A stretch of 64,000 bases of DNA from Thermotogaceae bacterium (GTDB taxonomy: Bacteria; Thermotogota; Thermotogae; Thermotogales; Thermotogaceae). Numbering within the stretch: the stretch's first letter is position 1; every line of letters starts with the position of its first letter. The stretch spans positions 496,001 to 560,000 of the forward strand of contig JALWTT010000006.1 in assembly GCA_027077795.1 (NCBI GenBank), given 5' to 3'. The notes beneath the pieces were generated by a model. It saw only the letters and a list, made by a program, of their open reading frames with translations, searched no databases and was not told the origin of the DNA. Position numbers and translations under genes: made by a program. Shown here piece by piece: positions 53,728 through 61,130 of this stretch.

Positions 53728-55134
53728 TCAGAGAGTGAAGAAAGCTTCAACTGACAAAATGAGGAAAGAGGGAATCACACCGTTTTTTATATAATTAAGA
53801 TCCATTAAAGAAATGCTTTCCACATTCAAAGATAGAAATCCAAACACCTCAAAACTCAATTTGCTCGCGAGGCTGAATCCGTAGATATCATTCCATGATG
53901 CTCCCAGACTGGTTTTGAGAGTTAAGAACTTGTTCAACACCGGGAATCTCAAGAATGCACCCAAGATCTGTATGCCACGTCGGAAGTTTATGTTTTCGAA
54001 ATACAAATAAGAATACTCGACCCTTACAAGAGCTCCTCCTTCCCCTCCAATAGCGTCATAGGCAAATCCAGCTCCGATTGAAAAAGGCTGTGAAAGAAGA
54101 ACGGAGGTTATCGATATTCCAGAGCCCTTAACTATTTTGAGATTTGAGGACACTTCTTTTGCTTTGCTGTCAACCAGACGCCTGAAATCGTTTAAGTCAA
54201 TCTTGCCGAGTGCGAGTTTCCATATATATATCCTTATATACCTCTCATCTTCGCTGTCTTTGAAAGGGCTCTGGGCTATGACTTTCCCAACCGCTGATTT
54301 TATGTAATCTGGAAGGTTAGAGCTTTTCACCATGTTGAACGCCTTCTCTTCAAGTACCGGAAAACCAAGGGATACTCTCTCATCTTCAAGTTGCCTTGGA
54401 AATATAACCTGTGGATTTTGAAGCTTTCCCGTGACCTTCGATACTTCCCCTTTCACATATTCCCCAAGTTCTTTGAAGGATACGAGACCGTCATTGTTGA
54501 GGTCAGCTTTACCTTCTAGCCCCTCTATCAAATAGTATGTGAATATCCCATGCTTCAGCTTGTCGTCCTCTTTCGAGGTTTCGTTGGGACCAGACGACAA
54601 GATCATAGCGGCCTTTTCCGGCGGCAAAGATTTCTTCGAAAAGTGTGTTACTCTGAGCGGTTTGTCTCTTCCTATGCTCCCTGAATAACAGGCGTCTATG
54701 AACATGAAGACCTCAGCAGGTGTTTGTTCAGCCAGTTTCTTCAAATGATCGTCAACCGGATATGCAGTTTCAGATAAGTAGTCGGCTACAGTGTCCTTCG
54801 GTATGAAATAAGTCTTTCCAGTCTTTGGATCATGATATCCATGTCCAGAGTAGTAGAAATAAAGCACATCTCCTTTTTTTGCTTTCGAGAAGAAATCCCT
54901 TATTTTCGCCTTCATCCATCCAAGAGTTGGATTCACAAGAACGGTGATCTTGTCCTTGGGAACTATCTCAAACACCTCGAGAGTTTTTGCAAAGGCCAAA
55001 GCATCGTTCTCTGCGTATTTCAGAGGGCTGATCGTCGGATCGTCGAATTTGGACACGTATATGACAAGGGCTTTTGAGATGGCAAATGTGAAGCCGTACA
55101 GGATTAAAAGCATGGGTATGAGAAACCTTTTCAT
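53728..55134 (-). CDS. Secreted caspase-like protease with EF-hand and beta-rich C-terminus
   Basis: About 468 residues from ATG 55134 (GGAGG, 8 nt). A signal peptide (MKRFLIPMLLILYGFTFA) is followed by a C14/metacaspase-like domain: His98 in YFYYSGHGYHDP and Cys149 in FMFIDACYSGSIG form the catalytic dyad. Residues about 215-232 are an EF-hand-like loop (DLNNDGLVSFKELGEY). After a helical part, residues about 340-468 show alternating strands (SIGAGFAYDAIGGEG, LKTSLGASWNDIYGFS, VEAFFTL at the end) suggesting an outer membrane barrel or beta-sandwich. It sits between two pairs of propeller lipoproteins. Overlaps the gene at 55140 region without overlap of the chosen starts. Confidence 0.82.
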   Translation of the reverse strand: MKRFLIPMLLILYGFTFAISKALVIYVSKFDDPTISPLKYAENDALAFAKTLEVFEIVPKDKITVLVNPTLGWMKAKIRDFFSKAKKGDVLYFYYSGHGYHDPKTGKTYFIPKDTVADYLSETAYPVDDHLKKLAEQTPAEVFMFIDACYSGSIGRDKPLRVTHFSKKSLPPEKAAMILSSGPNETSKEDDKLKHGIFTYYLIEGLEGKADLNNDGLVSFKELGEYVKGEVSKVTGKLQNPQVIFPRQLEDERVSLGFPVLEEKAFNMVKSSNLPDYIKSAVGKVIAQSPFKDSEDERYIRIYIWKLALGKIDLNDFRRLVDSKAKEVSSNLKIVKGSGISITSVLLSQPFSIGAGFAYDAIGGEGGALVRVEYSYLYFENINFRRGIQILGAFLRFPVLNKFLTLKTSLGASWNDIYGFSLASKLSFEVFGFLSLNVESISLMDLNYIKNGVIPSFLILSVEAFFTL

Positions 55135-55139
55135 GGGAA

Positions 55140-57386
55140 TCACCTCCAACTTTCAAAGTCGTTTTGCACCACAAGAATCCCTTTAGAAGAAGTCGAAATG
55201 TAAGCGTAATCCCCATAGAAGATTATATCGTTTATGTTCGACACGCCTGTGTCTATTGTTTGAATCAGCTTATCGTTGGACGTATCGACTACGTAAATCG
55301 TATCTCCCAATATGTAAAGATGATCTCCGAATATTCTGAGGCCGTTCACACAAGCTTTTAATACATTATTTTCTTTGAAGTTCTTCCTGTTTATTGACAT
55401 TACCTCTGCTGATACCATTCCGCTGGTTGCCACATATATCTTGTCTCCTGTAACTATCAGTTTTCCAGGACTCGAAGGAAGAAACTTTCTTCTCGTTACT
55501 TTTGGATTTGATGGATTGGTTATATCTAACTCCACTATTTCATCTTCGTCTTGAACTGATGCATACAAAGAGGTCCCTTCTAGGGCTAGACCTACAACTT
55601 TACCCAGTGGGATTTTGTCAACCGTTGTGGGAAACTCTGGAAAAGTTACATCGACAATCAAAAGTCCACTTTCACCATCTGCAATATATGCGTATTTATC
55701 TTTTACCACCAGATCTGTGTTGTATCCAGTTGTGCTGTTCATAGAACCCATGAGTCTCGGTTTCGATAAATCCTTGACATCTATTGTTAAGAAGTTCCAT
55801 TCCGTTACAGAGTATATGGTATGGTCTTTTATCACCATTTTTTCTATGTTGCTCTCTGGAAGCTGACCCAAAATTTTTGGAGAAGCAGGTGATGATTTCA
55901 GATTGAATATCAACAATCCGTTTGCATCATCTGAGGCGATTAGTGCATCTCCGTACACCTCGGACGTAATTATGTTACCTTTATCTTTGAACACATTCTT
56001 AATTCTCAGGTCATCTGAGTCTGATAAAACTATCAGTCCATTATACCCGGCTGATACGAGTATGAAATTCTCTGAGCAGGAGAAATCTGCATTTAAACAA
56101 TTATAAATGGGTAATGCTATTTCTCCGTCTAAATGAAGGCTCGATAGATCTGATATATCCACTCTAACTATTTCAATCTCACAGTTGCTTTGAAGATTGT
56201 TGTACGCCATGAGAAAGACATGATCGCCATAACTTTTGATTTCTTTAATCGAGGAATCCTCAAGATTGACTCCAAGATCTTCCAAATTGATTTCGGATAG
56301 CTTCGTGTAATCCTTCCTGTCATATATTATGAAAGTGTCGTAGGATATTACAAATAAGTAGTCTTGGTTGAGATCAAAGTGATACACATCTTGATCACTT
56401 AAAATCTTTTCGACGTATTTTGGAGATGCTGGATTGGTGACATCGAATACTAATATACCACCAAGTACATCATAGGGATTGCTTCTAAGGTACAACTTAT
56501 TCTCATATACCTTCATATTTTCGAAAAAGTCGGTTGATATTTTCAAATCTTCAGGTTTGAACTTTCCAACAATTTCAGGATCCCTCGGGTTTTCCACATT
56601 TATTATTGTAATCTCTTCACCAGCGTTCATGTAAACGTAAGAATTCTCCACTTCTATCTCTTTAGGATCATATATGGGGTTTAAAGTGATCTTCGAAACA
56701 AGTGAAGGGCTGGAAACATCGGATAAGTCCACAACGCAGAAACAATGGTTGGAGTCGTTGTCGTACCCAAAGATATATGCAAAATTACCTTCTATCACCA
56801 TCTTGTTAAAAGTGTAACCCTCTTTAGAAAATGATGAGATTTTCTCTAAGTTTCCATCATCATCAATGTTGTAGATATCTAGTTCATCCTGTGTGAGCGC
56901 TACCACGGCACTTTTATTTAGCATGAATGCACCGTAAAACGGCCCACCTTCTGTAAATATTGTGTTGAGAATTTTTGGATTCAATACATTATCGCCGGAC
57001 GCTTCGTTAGATACAGTCGTAAAGTTCCAAACTGGCCCTTCTACTGTGTTACCTCTCCCGCCATGTGCTACCACTTTCCAGAAATATTGCCCAGGACTTA
57101 ACTCATTTTTCAGAGAATATGATGATCCTTCTATTGCGCTTGCTACAAGTGAATCATCTTGACCGCTCTTCACTGATTCTGAATCCTGTGACAGGTACAA
57201 ATCGAATGTCATGCTGTTTATATCAGCGTTTTTCACACTCCATACAAAAGAAGGCTTCAACGATACGGAAGTTTGACCATTTTTTGGGCTTATGTACTCT
57301 ATTTTCACAAGACTTTCTGGCCCCGATGTTGTACACGATGAGAGGATCACGATTAGTAAGCCTAGTGCTATGATAAGCCTTTTCAC
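55140..57386 (-). CDS. Lipoprotein with Ig/FN3-like module and LVIVD-type propeller (3)
   Basis: 748 residues, start GTG 57386 ten nt after GAGG. Signal plus lipobox LSSC (about 15-18). Module: ISPKNGQTSVSLKPSFVW and YFWKVVAHGG...GPVWNFTT. The rest has many repeats of the LVIVD class (e.g. SGLLIVDVTFPEFPTTVDK, GLIVLSDSDD, IVELDITNPSNPKVTRRK), which fold into beta-propellers. Probably displayed on the cell surface. It precedes the caspase-like gene by 5 nt, so the two are likely co-transcribed. Confidence 0.82.
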   Translation of the reverse strand: MKRLIIALGLLIVILSSCTTSGPESLVKIEYISPKNGQTSVSLKPSFVWSVKNADINSMTFDLYLSQDSESVKSGQDDSLVASAIEGSSYSLKNELSPGQYFWKVVAHGGRGNTVEGPVWNFTTVSNEASGDNVLNPKILNTIFTEGGPFYGAFMLNKSAVVALTQDELDIYNIDDDGNLEKISSFSKEGYTFNKMVIEGNFAYIFGYDNDSNHCFCVVDLSDVSSPSLVSKITLNPIYDPKEIEVENSYVYMNAGEEITIINVENPRDPEIVGKFKPEDLKISTDFFENMKVYENKLYLRSNPYDVLGGILVFDVTNPASPKYVEKILSDQDVYHFDLNQDYLFVISYDTFIIYDRKDYTKLSEINLEDLGVNLEDSSIKEIKSYGDHVFLMAYNNLQSNCEIEIVRVDISDLSSLHLDGEIALPIYNCLNADFSCSENFILVSAGYNGLIVLSDSDDLRIKNVFKDKGNIITSEVYGDALIASDDANGLLIFNLKSSPASPKILGQLPESNIEKMVIKDHTIYSVTEWNFLTIDVKDLSKPRLMGSMNSTTGYNTDLVVKDKYAYIADGESGLLIVDVTFPEFPTTVDKIPLGKVVGLALEGTSLYASVQDEDEIVELDITNPSNPKVTRRKFLPSSPGKLIVTGDKIYVATSGMVSAEVMSINRKNFKENNVLKACVNGLRIFGDHLYILGDTIYVVDTSNDKLIQTIDTGVSNINDIIFYGDYAYISTSSKGILVVQNDFESWR

Positions 57387-57393
57387 TTTGCAG

Positions 57394-59562
57394 TCACCTC
57401 TTTTCGATTCTCAGAATGTGGATTCCGTTTTCCCAACCTGAGATTATTATCATGTCACCGTCCAAGGATAGATCATTGCTCAGCTGCGGGATATCGTTAT
57501 ACTGAAGAACTTCCACCGGATTTTCCGGGTTTGACAGATCTATGATGTGTAGAGAATTCCTTTCCAAGATGAAGATGTACCCTTTTTCTGACTCCATATC
57601 CACGAAGTCGGATAACGTTTTAACATCGAGTTCGTTCACCTTCAAAAGGGTATGGTTGGAAAGCAACTTAAAAACTATGAGTTTAATGTCTCCATCGCTT
57701 GCCGTGGCATATATGTAATCATCGCGCTTTTGGATTCTCCAGATGCCGTATATCTCTTCCTTATGCACCACCTGTGGTGATGACGGATCGCTGACGTCTA
57801 CAATTAGAATACCCTTGAGCGTTGAAAGATAAACAGTTTCACTAGCCGCTGTTATATCGGTTACTTGACCAAAACTTATGTTCGTGTGTCCAACAACTAT
57901 CGGTGTTGAATCACCATTCAATTTCGCTATGTATAGATCTCCATCAGACGAGATGACGTATACGTAGCCGTTCTCTACGTCGAATCTCCCCTCGATATTC
58001 GATTGAAACAACAAGTTTGGTTGGCACTTCTTTGAGACATCCACCGCGGCTAGCGGACTGTAAAAATCACCCAAATAAAGTACAGTGCCATGTAGCAGAA
58101 GCTTGTTTATATAATACATGTAATCCGGAAGGAAGAATTCACAAACTTTCGAGGCGCTTAAATCCGGTGTTAGATCTACTGTATTTAGTTTAGAGCTACT
58201 GTATGCGTACAGAGTGTTATGATCCAGAATCGCTGTTCTGACATTAGCATAGGGGAAGACGCGGTCTAACTCCTCTAAATCTTTATTGAGTATTGTCACA
58301 CCGTTATTCAAACCAGTTACATACAAATTACCATTTATGGATCTCAATCTTGATATGTATATCACATGCTTGCTCTTTACCAACCTTGGAGAGGTGATAT
58401 CGGATAAATCGAATACGTCTATCCAGGAAGGTCCCGCCATATATAACCGGTTGTCTAAGGCTATCATAGAATTGGTCGACATATTCAAATCCGAAGCTTT
58501 TCCAAGCAATGCAGGATCCTTTGGATCGCTTATATCCATGACTATTAGTTCTGAAGAAGTCTTTATGAAAAGTTTGTTTGAATGGACTGCTATTTTTTCT
58601 ATGTCACAGTAGGGGCGGGTAATCTCGTTTACCTTGATTGGATTTTCCAAGTCAGAGATGTCGAAAACCTTCACACTATCTCCGGTTGCTATATACATAA
58701 CATCACTTAAGACTGCTATGTCCCTCACATCTTCATTCAAGGAGGCTTTCAGAGAAAGTTCGCTGGATTTAGGGTCATACTCATATATTTTTACCTTGTC
58801 TGAGTCTTTTAAAAATATTCTATAGTCATCAACCCTGAAGAATGGTTCTAAGTCATCAATGCTGATTACATTCAGAGGATGGGGATTTAAAGGATCGGAT
58901 ATGTCAAGGGTTATCAAGTAGTTTATCCCGTAGCGATTCAATATCACATATAAGCTATTTCCAGCGACTTCTATTTGCTCAATCAAAGCGTCTGTAGAAA
59001 ATCTCTTGATAACTGATTTACCATTCATTATATAGATGCCTTTATCTGTTCCGACATACAATAAATCACTTGCGTAAGACACATCGTACGTGTTAGATTC
59101 TCCAACCATTATCGTTGCGACTTCCGACAAAGAAAGCTTGGGGGTTCCAGAGCTAGACGATACCGTTGTGAAATCCCACACATCACTTTCCGCTTTAACA
59201 TCATCTTTGTATGCTACGACTTTCCAGAAATACTTTGTAGAAAAATCCAGAGGAGTTCCATTTTCAAAATGGTTTTCTCGAATTCCTTTTGCTATCAAAG
59301 CATCTGAAGCTTCTCTTTCTACATCTTCTTTGTTTTTTGAGAGATATAAGTTATATACAACTCTGTCAAGTTCTCCACCATCTGTGTGCCATGAAAATCG
59401 CGGGGTAACCGAGACATCCTCCAAATGATTCTCCGGGAACTCGAGTGTTATGAGCAAAGAGCTTTCATCCTCCTCGCTTGCGTTTGGACTGTAAGAACAG
59501 GATGAAATGAAGGTGAGAATCATAAATGAAATGAGCAAAAATCTGAGCCACTCAACTCTCAC
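57394..59562 (-). CDS. Lipoprotein with Ig/FN3-like module and LVIVD-type propeller (4)
   Basis: About 722 residues from GTG 59562, 7 nt after GGGGG. Signal and lipobox ISSC (about 19-22). Module: FPENHLEDVSVTPRFSW and YFWKVVAYKD...SDVWDFTT. LVIVD-like repeats include VKVFDISDLENPIKVNE, LIVMDISDPKDPALLGK, LIVDVSDPSSPQVVHK. First gene of the island operon, with promoter 59598-59625. Paralogue of 55140. Confidence 0.82.
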   Translation of the reverse strand: MRVEWLRFLLISFMILTFISSCSYSPNASEEDESSLLITLEFPENHLEDVSVTPRFSWHTDGGELDRVVYNLYLSKNKEDVEREASDALIAKGIRENHFENGTPLDFSTKYFWKVVAYKDDVKAESDVWDFTTVSSSSGTPKLSLSEVATIMVGESNTYDVSYASDLLYVGTDKGIYIMNGKSVIKRFSTDALIEQIEVAGNSLYVILNRYGINYLITLDISDPLNPHPLNVISIDDLEPFFRVDDYRIFLKDSDKVKIYEYDPKSSELSLKASLNEDVRDIAVLSDVMYIATGDSVKVFDISDLENPIKVNEITRPYCDIEKIAVHSNKLFIKTSSELIVMDISDPKDPALLGKASDLNMSTNSMIALDNRLYMAGPSWIDVFDLSDITSPRLVKSKHVIYISRLRSINGNLYVTGLNNGVTILNKDLEELDRVFPYANVRTAILDHNTLYAYSSSKLNTVDLTPDLSASKVCEFFLPDYMYYINKLLLHGTVLYLGDFYSPLAAVDVSKKCQPNLLFQSNIEGRFDVENGYVYVISSDGDLYIAKLNGDSTPIVVGHTNISFGQVTDITAASETVYLSTLKGILIVDVSDPSSPQVVHKEEIYGIWRIQKRDDYIYATASDGDIKLIVFKLLSNHTLLKVNELDVKTLSDFVDMESEKGYIFILERNSLHIIDLSNPENPVEVLQYNDIPQLSNDLSLDGDMIIISGWENGIHILRIEKR

Positions 59563-59597
59563 AGCACTTCCCCCTTCCAGAAGTAAGCCCCACAAAT

Positions 59598-59625
59598 ATT
59601 TTAAAACTAGTTAAAAATTTTTCAA
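59598..59625 (-). promoter_or_regulatory. Promoter of the caspase/lipoprotein operon
   Basis: Minus-strand TTGAAA (59625-59620), 16-bp spacer, TAAAAT (59603-59598), 35 nt before the first start codon. It interleaves with the trp leader promoter on the other strand. Confidence 0.6.
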
Positions 59626-59638
59626 AAAGTGGTAAAAT
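59611..59638 (+). promoter_or_regulatory. Promoter of the trp leader and trpB2
   Basis: TTAAAA (59611-59616), 16-bp spacer and TAAAAT (59633-59638) preceded by TGG, an extended -10. The leader peptide starts 22 nt downstream. No TrpR-type operator was recognised; control appears to be by attenuation. Confidence 0.65.
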
Positions 59639-59660
59639 CTCAAGAGATAGGAGGGAAAGT

Positions 59661-59732
59661 ATGGTAGTGTTGCTGGAAAGCCTTTATTTTTCTCTTAGCA
59701 ACAACTGGTGGTGGATTTCTCCCCCGATCTGA
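59661..59732 (+). CDS. trpL: trp leader peptide with three consecutive Trp codons
   Basis: A 23-residue ORF, MVVLLESLYFSLSNN then WWWISPPI, starting ATG 59661 five nt after GGAGGG and ending TGA 59730-59732. Codons 16-18 (59706-59714) are TGG TGG TGG. It lies inside the transcript upstream of trpB2 and overlaps the RNA arms of an attenuator, so its translation senses charged tRNA-Trp. Too short for normal gene finders, but position, SD and the Trp run make it convincing. Confidence 0.9.
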   Translation: MVVLLESLYFSLSNNWWWISPPI

Positions 59733-59796
59733 GGGAGAAATTCTGCTTTTTGTGCTAGATCGGGGGCTCTCAACATCGAGAGCCCCTTTATTTTTT
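59715..59796 (+). promoter_or_regulatory. Tryptophan transcription attenuator of trpB2
   Basis: Three exclusive stems. Pause hairpin: ATTTCTCCC (59715-59723) with GGGAGAAAT (59733-59741), 9 bp. Antiterminator: CCCCCGATCT (59721-59730) with AGATCGGGGG (59757-59766), 10 bp. Terminator: GGGGCTCTC (59763-59771) with GAGAGCCCC (59778-59786), 9 bp, then TTTATTTTTT. A ribosome stalled at the Trp codons leaves 59721-59730 free to form the antiterminator; one at the stop codon covers it and allows termination. This is the classic arrangement of the E. coli trp leader. Confidence 0.9.
59763..59796 (+). terminator. Attenuator terminator hairpin
   Basis: 9-bp stem, 6-nt loop (AACATC), followed by a T-rich tract, with a second copy of the downstream arm and tract at 59800-59818. 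It ends the leader transcript when tryptophan is plentiful. Confidence 0.9.
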
Positions 59797-59818
59797 AATA
59801 GCCCCTTTATTTTTTAAT
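59781..59818 (+). repeat. Tandem 19-nt duplication of the terminator tail
   Basis: AGCCCCTTTATTTTTTAAT occurs twice in direct tandem at 59781-59799 and 59800-59818. The first copy is the 3' arm and T tract of the terminator; the second can pair only 6 bp with the 5' arm. Confidence 0.85.
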
Positions 59819-59833
59819 TAGGGGGGATGCGTT

Positions 59834-61102
59834 GTGAGAATTAGGGTAGATTTAAAACCTTCAGAGCTCCCAAGAAGTTGGTACAACGCTTTAGCAGATC
59901 TTCCGTTCAAACTCGATCCACCACTTGATCCGGAAACATCGAAACCGGTGAACCCTGAAAAGCTTCTGGCGATTTTTCCACGACCGATTGTTGAACAAGA
60001 GTTACCGGAGGGGAGGTTCGTGGAAATACCTGAGGAAGTTCTCAAAGAGTATTCGGTTTATAGACCAACTCCTCTGTTCAGGGCAAACTTTTTGGAAGAG
60101 TACCTTCAAACTCCGGCGAGGATCTACTACAAGTACGAAGGAGTCAGTCCTACAGGTAGTCACAAGACGAATACTGCCATCGCTCAGGCGTACTTCAACA
60201 AAATAGACGGTGTAAAAAGACTTGTTACCGAAACAGGAGCAGGGCAATGGGGAAGTGCGCTTTCTTACGCCGGGAGTAAATTTGGCCTTGAAACGAAAGT
60301 TTTCATGGTGAAGGTTAGCTATGAACAAAAGCCGATGAGGAAGAACTTGATGAAACTCTTTGGAGGGGACGTGACTCCAAGTCCGAGCGATAAGACGAGC
60401 TTTGGAAAGAAACTCCTTGAGGAAGATCCAAGCAATCCTGGTAGTTTGGGAATAGCGATAAGTGAAGCACTTGAGATAGCTATAAGGAGCGAAGATACAA
60501 AGTATGCTCTTGGGAGCGTTCTAAACCATGTTCTTCTCCATCAAACCGTTATAGGGCTCGAGATAAAAAGGCAACTTGAAATCCTCGGAGAGAAGCCAAA
60601 TGTGATAATCGGTTGTCATGGTGGAGGATCTAACTTTGGGGGGACAATTCTACCATTCGTTCCAGATAAACTCTCAAGGGATAATCTTGAATTCGTGGCT
60701 GCGGAGCCGAAAGCTTGCCCCTCTCTAACAGAGGGTGAGTTCCGATATGATCACGGTGATACAGCTGGTTTGACCCCTCTTTTTAAGATGTACACGCTTG
60801 GAAAAGATTTCATGCCTCCAAAGATACATGCAGGTGGCCTTAGGTATCACGGATCTTCTCCCATAATAGCGAGAATGGTGAAAGAGGGTTTGGTCAGAGC
60901 TGAGGCGTACGAACAAAACGAGGTTTTCAAATGGGCAAAGATTTTTTCAAGGTTAGAGGGAATAGTTCCAGCTCCCGAATCCGCACATGCAATAGCGTCT
61001 GCAGTCCATCACGCCTTAATGGCAAGAGAAGAGGGAATAGAAAAGGTGATCGTTTTCAATCTAAGTGGTCATGGTCTTTTCGACCTCTCCGCTTACAGCT
61101 AA
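59834..61102 (+). CDS. trpB2: Tryptophan synthase beta chain, TrpB2 type
   Basis: Condenses indole and serine to tryptophan with PLP. 422 residues, the longer TrpB2 form common in thermophiles. PLP lysine in PTGSHKTNTAIAQAYF (about residue 110), phosphate loop GCHGGGSNFGG, catalytic glutamate in TETGAGQWGSALSYA, TrpB2-type HHAL and SGHGLFDLSAYS end. GTG 59834 is 7 nt after GGGGGG. No trpA or other trp gene is adjacent, so it acts alone, recycling indole or scavenging. Expression is set by the attenuator. Confidence 0.96.
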   Translation: MRIRVDLKPSELPRSWYNALADLPFKLDPPLDPETSKPVNPEKLLAIFPRPIVEQELPEGRFVEIPEEVLKEYSVYRPTPLFRANFLEEYLQTPARIYYKYEGVSPTGSHKTNTAIAQAYFNKIDGVKRLVTETGAGQWGSALSYAGSKFGLETKVFMVKVSYEQKPMRKNLMKLFGGDVTPSPSDKTSFGKKLLEEDPSNPGSLGIAISEALEIAIRSEDTKYALGSVLNHVLLHQTVIGLEIKRQLEILGEKPNVIIGCHGGGSNFGGTILPFVPDKLSRDNLEFVAAEPKACPSLTEGEFRYDHGDTAGLTPLFKMYTLGKDFMPPKIHAGGLRYHGSSPIIARMVKEGLVRAEAYEQNEVFKWAKIFSRLEGIVPAPESAHAIASAVHHALMAREEGIEKVIVFNLSGHGLFDLSAYS

Positions 61103-61104
61103 GA

Positions 61105-61130
61105 AGGCGCCTTTTCGGGCGCCTCTTTCA
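61105..61130. terminator. Bidirectional terminator after trpB2
   Basis: AGGCGCC (61105-61111) / GGCGCCT (61118-61124) with a 6-nt loop, followed by CTTTC on the plus side and A-rich bases on the minus side. It lies between trpB2 and the convergent SwrB-like gene. Confidence 0.75.

Follow-up and report, generated by a model that had tools for sequence, protein, structure and literature searches.

How is a solitary trpB2 gene of a Thermotogaceae bacterium tied to the supply of tryptophan, and what does the cell need it for? The gene lies in a stretch of 64,000 nucleotides of contig JALWTT010000006.1 (assembly GCA_027077795.1), here called the window. Its product scores 691.1 bits against TIGR01415, for which the curated cut-off is 518.85, and its nearest solved relatives (6hul, 4qys and 6hte) are chains deposited as tryptophan synthase beta. 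The upstream neighbor is divergent (ending at 59595) and the downstream neighbor is convergent, leaving trpB2 as a single-gene unit, and the hairpin directly 3′ of the gene (Table 1) is the probable end of its transcript. The TrpB2o subgroup is defined by genes that stand outside a trp operon, as trpB2 of the window does. On the minus strand of the window (53728-59595), a caspase-domain protein (Peptidase_C14) adjoins two large neighboring LVIVD-repeat proteins that look like paralogues.

An earlier note on this DNA had described a 23-residue leader peptide with three successive Trp codons, a pause hairpin, a 10-bp antiterminator and a 9-bp terminator with a T tract, all placed between a promoter and trpB2. 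The peptide is present in the sequence at or very near the place described, as are the three helices, with stems of 9, 10 and 9-10 bp (Table 1). The Trp codons are codons 16-18 (59706-59714), and the stop codon sits in the loop of hairpin 1, a perfect 9-bp inverted repeat (9/9) that is part of the MFE fold. The antiterminator, a perfect 10-bp inverted repeat (10/10), shares 59721-59723 with hairpin 1 and 59762-59766 with the terminator, whose stem (59762-59771 with 59778-59787) is followed by the T-rich tract TTTATTTTTTA. The three helices are thus mutually exclusive. RNA folding, proposed in the note as a check, ranked the leader above 199 of 200 dinucleotide shuffles in stability (z = -3.75), and the 5′ and 3′ segments of the antiterminator pair at -21.5 kcal/mol, a value equalled by one of 5000 shuffles. 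The layout is as the note had it, while the promoter itself is weak, if plausible: the scan found 9/12 consensus matches with TG ahead of the -10, and two sites compared with 0.4 in shuffles. Congeners have an extended -10 at the same place (aggtggtaaaat in G001, agtgctaaaat in G002 and agtggtataat in G004), and transcription would be expected to start near 59645.

Table 1. Features of the trpB2 locus, in positions of the window.
Feature	Position	Strand	Basis
Probable promoter: weak -35 TTAAAA, 16-nt spacer, extended -10 TGGTAAAAT	59611..59638	+	Consensus scan
Shine-Dalgarno of leader peptide, AGGAGGG, strong	59649..59655	+	Sequence
Leader ORF MVVLLESLYFSLSNNWWWISPPI, 23 aa, ATG 59661, TGA 59730-59732	59661..59732	+	Sequence
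Hairpin 1 (pause/anti-antiterminator), ATTTCTCCC 59715-59723 with GGGAGAAAT 59733-59741	59715..59741	+	
Antiterminator, CCCCCGATCT 59721-59730 with AGATCGGGGG 59757-59766	59721..59766	+	Inverted repeat, covariation, arm-swap
Intrinsic terminator, GGGGGCTCTC-AACATC-GAGAGCCCCT, then TTATTTTTTAA	59762..59798	+	Scan, inverted repeat
Second tandem copy of AGCCCCTTTATTTTTTAAT (terminator 3′ arm and T tract)	59800..59818	+	Sequence
Shine-Dalgarno of trpB2, AGGGGGG	59820..59826	+	Sequence
trpB2, GTG start, 422 aa, TrpB-like PLP enzyme	59834..61102	+	TIGR01415
GC-rich hairpin with T-rich tail GAAGGCGCCTTTTCGGGCGCCTCTTTC, directly 3′ of trpB2	61104..61128	+	Read from sequence

The note had also suggested looking for the same leader before trpB2 in related genomes. 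Of 61 relatives searched at the protein level, 49 have trpB2 (including G011, where it is in pieces), and 47 of these have readable upstream DNA, the other two being cut by contig ends. A Trp-run leader stands directly ahead of a terminator in 37 of these 47 relatives, and a further 18 genomes were found blind by a covariance model, giving 55 genomes with an attenuated trpB2. The run is TGGTGGTGG (WWW) in all 37 except G048, which has TGG TAT TGG TGG (WYWW), and an equivalent terminator is present in all 37 aligned leaders. As a sole query for other leaders the motif is too common, with 36 matches to the genome of the window. What is conserved is the run of Trp codons directly before the antiterminator arm; the N-terminus of the leader peptide varies. 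Among the readable relatives without the leader, two belong to group g7 (G015 and G036) and the other eight to genus groups g4 and g5; each of these eight retains a trp operon. Group g5 is probably Thermotoga itself, and it includes G011, which has a trp operon and no attenuator, with trpB2 in separate pieces at G011:C1:121937-124299. In two relatives, G052 (L075) and G046 (L076), a tRNA-Val(GAC) gene lies directly ahead of the trpB2 leader, and the two may share one transcript.

Pairing within the antiterminator was assessed in two ways. In an arm-swap test on the non-overlapping 5′ and 3′ antiterminator segments of the 37 leaders, mean pairing was -24.4 kcal/mol for a leader's own arms, -23.4 for arms exchanged within a family and -11.0 for arms exchanged between families. 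A leader's own pair was better than every cross-family pair in 33 of the 37, the leaders of G048 and G056 failed the test, and none of 20,000 random reassignments reached the observed mean. Column-based pair counts were made on the 14 leaders of families f1 and f2 and were limited to the antiterminator, because MAFFT puts hairpin 1 and the terminator of these two families out of register. In this alignment 97.4% of the antiterminator cells are paired, and both bases are exchanged in four pairs, C-G for G-C among them. A one-column shift of the partner lowered pairing to 66% or 49%, a control that is biased in favor of the tested structure since that structure was derived from the same sequences; the cross-family arm swap is independent of the column alignment. 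The sequences of the helix thus change while pairing is kept, and we regard this conservation with compensatory change as decisive, being the strongest evidence against chance.

Comparative evidence from conservation, arm swap and covariation therefore gives strong support to reading the trpB2 leader as a classic ribosome-mediated tryptophan attenuator. That the conserved RNA switch is an attenuator we hold to be almost certain, and the full mechanism, in which ribosome-mediated transcription attenuation of the stand-alone trpB2 senses charged tRNA-Trp, is very probable; from the sequence we infer that trpB2 responds to tryptophan. With ample tryptophan, the ribosome would reach the TGA at 59730 and cover the 5′ antiterminator arm (59721-59730), the terminator would form and transcription would end near 59797. 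With scarce charged tRNA-Trp, the ribosome would stall at the first Trp codons and mask the 5′ arm of hairpin 1, so that 59721-59730 could pair with 59757-59766 while the 3′ arm of the terminator is still to be made, and RNA polymerase could read into trpB2. If the leader were not translated, hairpin 1 could block the antiterminator and the terminator would form.

These steps were modeled in silico at 75°C by a simple footprint scheme, in which the ribosome is assumed, as in other bacteria, to cover 16 nt counted from the start of its P-site codon. When it waits on the first Trp codon, 30 of the 37 leaders have the antiterminator as the best fold of the transcript synthesized up to that point; when it is on the stop codon, the antiterminator forms in none. 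The arm is uncovered much less often when the ribosome sits on the second Trp codon (8 of 37 leaders) or the third (4 of 37), which makes the first Trp codon the likely sensor. When the full-length leader is folded, the terminator is preferred in most leaders, including that of the window, despite a ribosome on the first Trp codon. Since the complete terminator is then the more stable fold, the model implies that the choice between the structures must be made co-transcriptionally, i.e., kinetically. Similarly, without a ribosome and before the 3′ arm of the terminator is made, the antiterminator is favored in 25-28 of the 37 leaders, so a kinetic role is required of hairpin 1 as well. The E. 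coli trp attenuator is likewise a co-transcriptional (kinetic) switch. Its antiterminator uses the 3′ arm of hairpin 1, whereas here the antiterminator's 5′ arm, which includes the stop codon, shares bases with the 5′ arm and the loop of hairpin 1.

A promoter and a terminator can arise by chance, and the terminator scan found one terminator here compared with 0.7 in shuffles. The region could therefore be read as an ordinary intrinsic terminator, serving an upstream transcript or acting constitutively, next to a chance short ORF with no tryptophan control. However, the neighboring gene upstream runs divergently, and many families preserve the WWW run together with the three competing helices, with compensatory changes. 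The comparative data refute a chance ORF with a terminator, and we give this explanation practically no credence. Trp genes of other phyla are also controlled by TRAP-like proteins, T-boxes and riboswitches, and such a tryptophan-responsive mechanism could act on this leader with the WWW peptide being incidental. Yet the search, which covered the Rfam families, T-box included, found none at gathering score in the window and none near it when the leader was searched at relaxed thresholds. The element that relatives keep is the stretch of Trp codons just ahead of the antiterminator arm, which argues against an incidental peptide. A T-box or riboswitch was rejected since the gathering and relaxed searches gave nothing relevant, and the probability we leave to another mechanism of this kind is very small.

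A different kind of control was suggested by a feature that the earlier note had missed, a perfect 19-bp tandem duplication (59781-59799 and 59800-59818). AGCCCC at 59800-59805, in the second copy, is complementary to part of the trpB2 Shine-Dalgarno, and control could be mainly translational if the CCCC paired with AGGGGGG. The duplication is absent from the upstream regions of the relatives, the second copy being confined to the genome of the window, so it was rejected as the main switch and could at most be a local addition to the conserved attenuator. Mainly translational control is thus improbable, and the duplication itself is either recent slippage or an assembly effect.

To what extent is this attenuator particular to trpB2? 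The covariance model, built from 14 leaders, was run against 103 genomes of the phylum and matches 43 of them; for matches outside the training families the downstream gene was read or assigned by coordinates. Matches precede trpB2 in G061-G063 and in fifteen genomes of family f11 (G069-G083), and they precede trp operons in family f5 (trpD first) and in G099 (trpE first). In the genome of the window the trpB2 leader is the single significant match. In G061, which has a leader at the trp operon and another at trpB2, the two can be aligned for most of their length and are clearly homologous, so one probably arose from the other. Two further genomes, G101 (L119) and G086 (L120), have a lone trpB1 under a WWW attenuator and no trpA match, as though trpB1 stood in for trpB2 in family f9.

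The role of trpB2 was approached from the rest of the pathway. The earlier note placed the gene outside any trp operon, which turns out to be an understatement: no match for trpA, trpB1, trpC or trpE was found in the genome of the window, and trpD gave only partial sub-threshold matches like those in every relative. trpB2 is the only tryptophan-pathway gene found there. Among the 61 relatives, trpA, trpC, trpD and trpB1 are carried by the same 18 genomes, and 31 of the 37 genomes with an attenuated trpB2 lack all four, counts that are not independent as relatives inherit together and in which some absences may be assembly gaps, the genomes being 94%-99% complete at best and MAGs being liable to miss genes. 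The remaining six (G024, G038, G046, G049, G055 and G059) carry these genes along with an attenuated trpB2. No trpA match was found in the f11 genomes, and the pattern of absence recurs over several families and genera. Since trpB2 is the sole pathway gene found, indole salvage is favored over the serine-linked recycling that the note had offered beside it, and no evidence for such recycling was found. A full-length tryptophanase was also not found in the genome of the window (only G060 has full-length matches), so the indole would come from outside or by another route. The trpB2 product most likely makes tryptophan from scavenged indole and serine or O-phosphoserine, and indole salvage is likely its main role. 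The TrpB2 of T. kodakarensis is reported to have a part in the salvage of indole (Hiyama et al. 2014, as cited in PMC11085991), and TrpB2 enzymes reportedly bind indole tightly (Hettwer and Sterner 2002, as cited in PMC11917138) and use O-phosphoserine (Busch et al. 2014, as cited in PMC11917138). Tryptophan synthase activity from indole is thus known for relatives (PMC11917138; PMC11085991).

The role of stand-alone TrpB2 is debated, and another function has been suspected where a lone TrpB2 occurs without a trp operon. The attenuator could thus be real while TrpB2 has another main task, such as deaminating serine or producing a different tryptophan-like compound, with tryptophan control being a mere reflection of kinship with TrpB. 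For the lone trpB2o of Pyrococcus horikoshii, retention was argued to point to another function and a serine deaminase role was proposed, although the serine deaminase activity of TrpB2o was reported to be poor (PMC1854888). In addition, the Trp-codon leader kept across the phylum ties trpB2 to tryptophan supply, and the same type of leader controls trp operons and lone trpB1 genes without trpA. We consider a main function of this other kind unlikely. The occurrence of one attenuator type before trp operons and lone trpB1 in related lineages supports the reading of the trpB2 leader as attenuation of indole salvage.

How does this leader compare with known systems? It shares with the enterobacterial trp attenuator (trpL, RF00513) a short leader peptide with tandem Trp codons, three exclusive helices and an intrinsic terminator ahead of the first structural gene, with termination as the default. 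It differs in having three or four Trp codons instead of two, and in its target, a lone trpB2 instead of the trp operon. The Trp_leader family RF00513 has no match to it at gathering score, nor up to E = 5 in the relaxed leader search. Tryptophan attenuators have been described from proteobacteria and Actinobacteria (PMC1262725; PMC3766115), and those of Actinobacteria likewise have two or three TGG codons and GC-rich terminators with poly-U (PMC1262725). The actinobacterial attenuators stand at both parts of the trp operon, one of them ahead of the C. diphtheriae operon given the name trpB2A in that paper (PMC1262725). The trpB2 of C. diphtheriae precedes trpA in a biosynthetic operon, however, whereas here trpB2 stands alone, and most of the genomes lack the trp operon genes that were searched for. 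As a TIGR01415 member outside an operon, the window gene resembles the TrpB2o (COG1350/TIGR01415) of T. maritima, Pyrococcus and Thermococcus (PMC1854888). In that study, 14 of 16 TrpB2o were from species that also have an operon trpB1, while most genomes with an attenuated trpB2 here have no trpB1, and no leader control of TrpB2o was described (PMC1854888). We found no earlier description of a trpB2 leader or of a Thermotogota trp attenuator in the open-access library searched.

The leader is thus a known mechanism in an undescribed, phylum-wide family and at an unusual target. It brings a thermophilic, deep-branching phylum into the range of ribosome-mediated tryptophan attenuation, with trp operons, trpB2 and lone trpB1 as the targets, and a covariance model is now ready for a family that Rfam lacks. 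Going further, we somewhat favor the view that this is a distinct, Thermotogota-wide class of tryptophan attenuator outside Rfam that has become a dedicated regulator of indole salvage. If this is true, many lineages would have lost the trp operon and kept a lone attenuated trpB2 (trpB1 in family f9), and most of the phylum would depend on the indole of neighboring microbes, its uptake into tryptophan being switched by the charging of tRNA-Trp. A phylum-wide attenuator at trpB2 means that selection ties the gene to tryptophan supply, and indole salvage becomes directly testable.

Two other loci found by the model, both in G047, lie ahead of different genes. A WWW leader with the same attenuator layout (L116, G047:C43:500-3200) precedes two ferredoxin-type genes and an aldehyde:ferredoxin oxidoreductase, which suggests that in this genome a tungsten or molybdenum enzyme is under tryptophan control. 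At L117 (G047:C72:11060-13800), a weak match (E 0.009), a similar terminator and antiterminator stand ahead of a homocysteine biosynthesis (HcyBio) gene, and the leader peptide has Met-Ile-Met-Cys where WWW stands elsewhere, making it a candidate sulfur amino acid attenuator.
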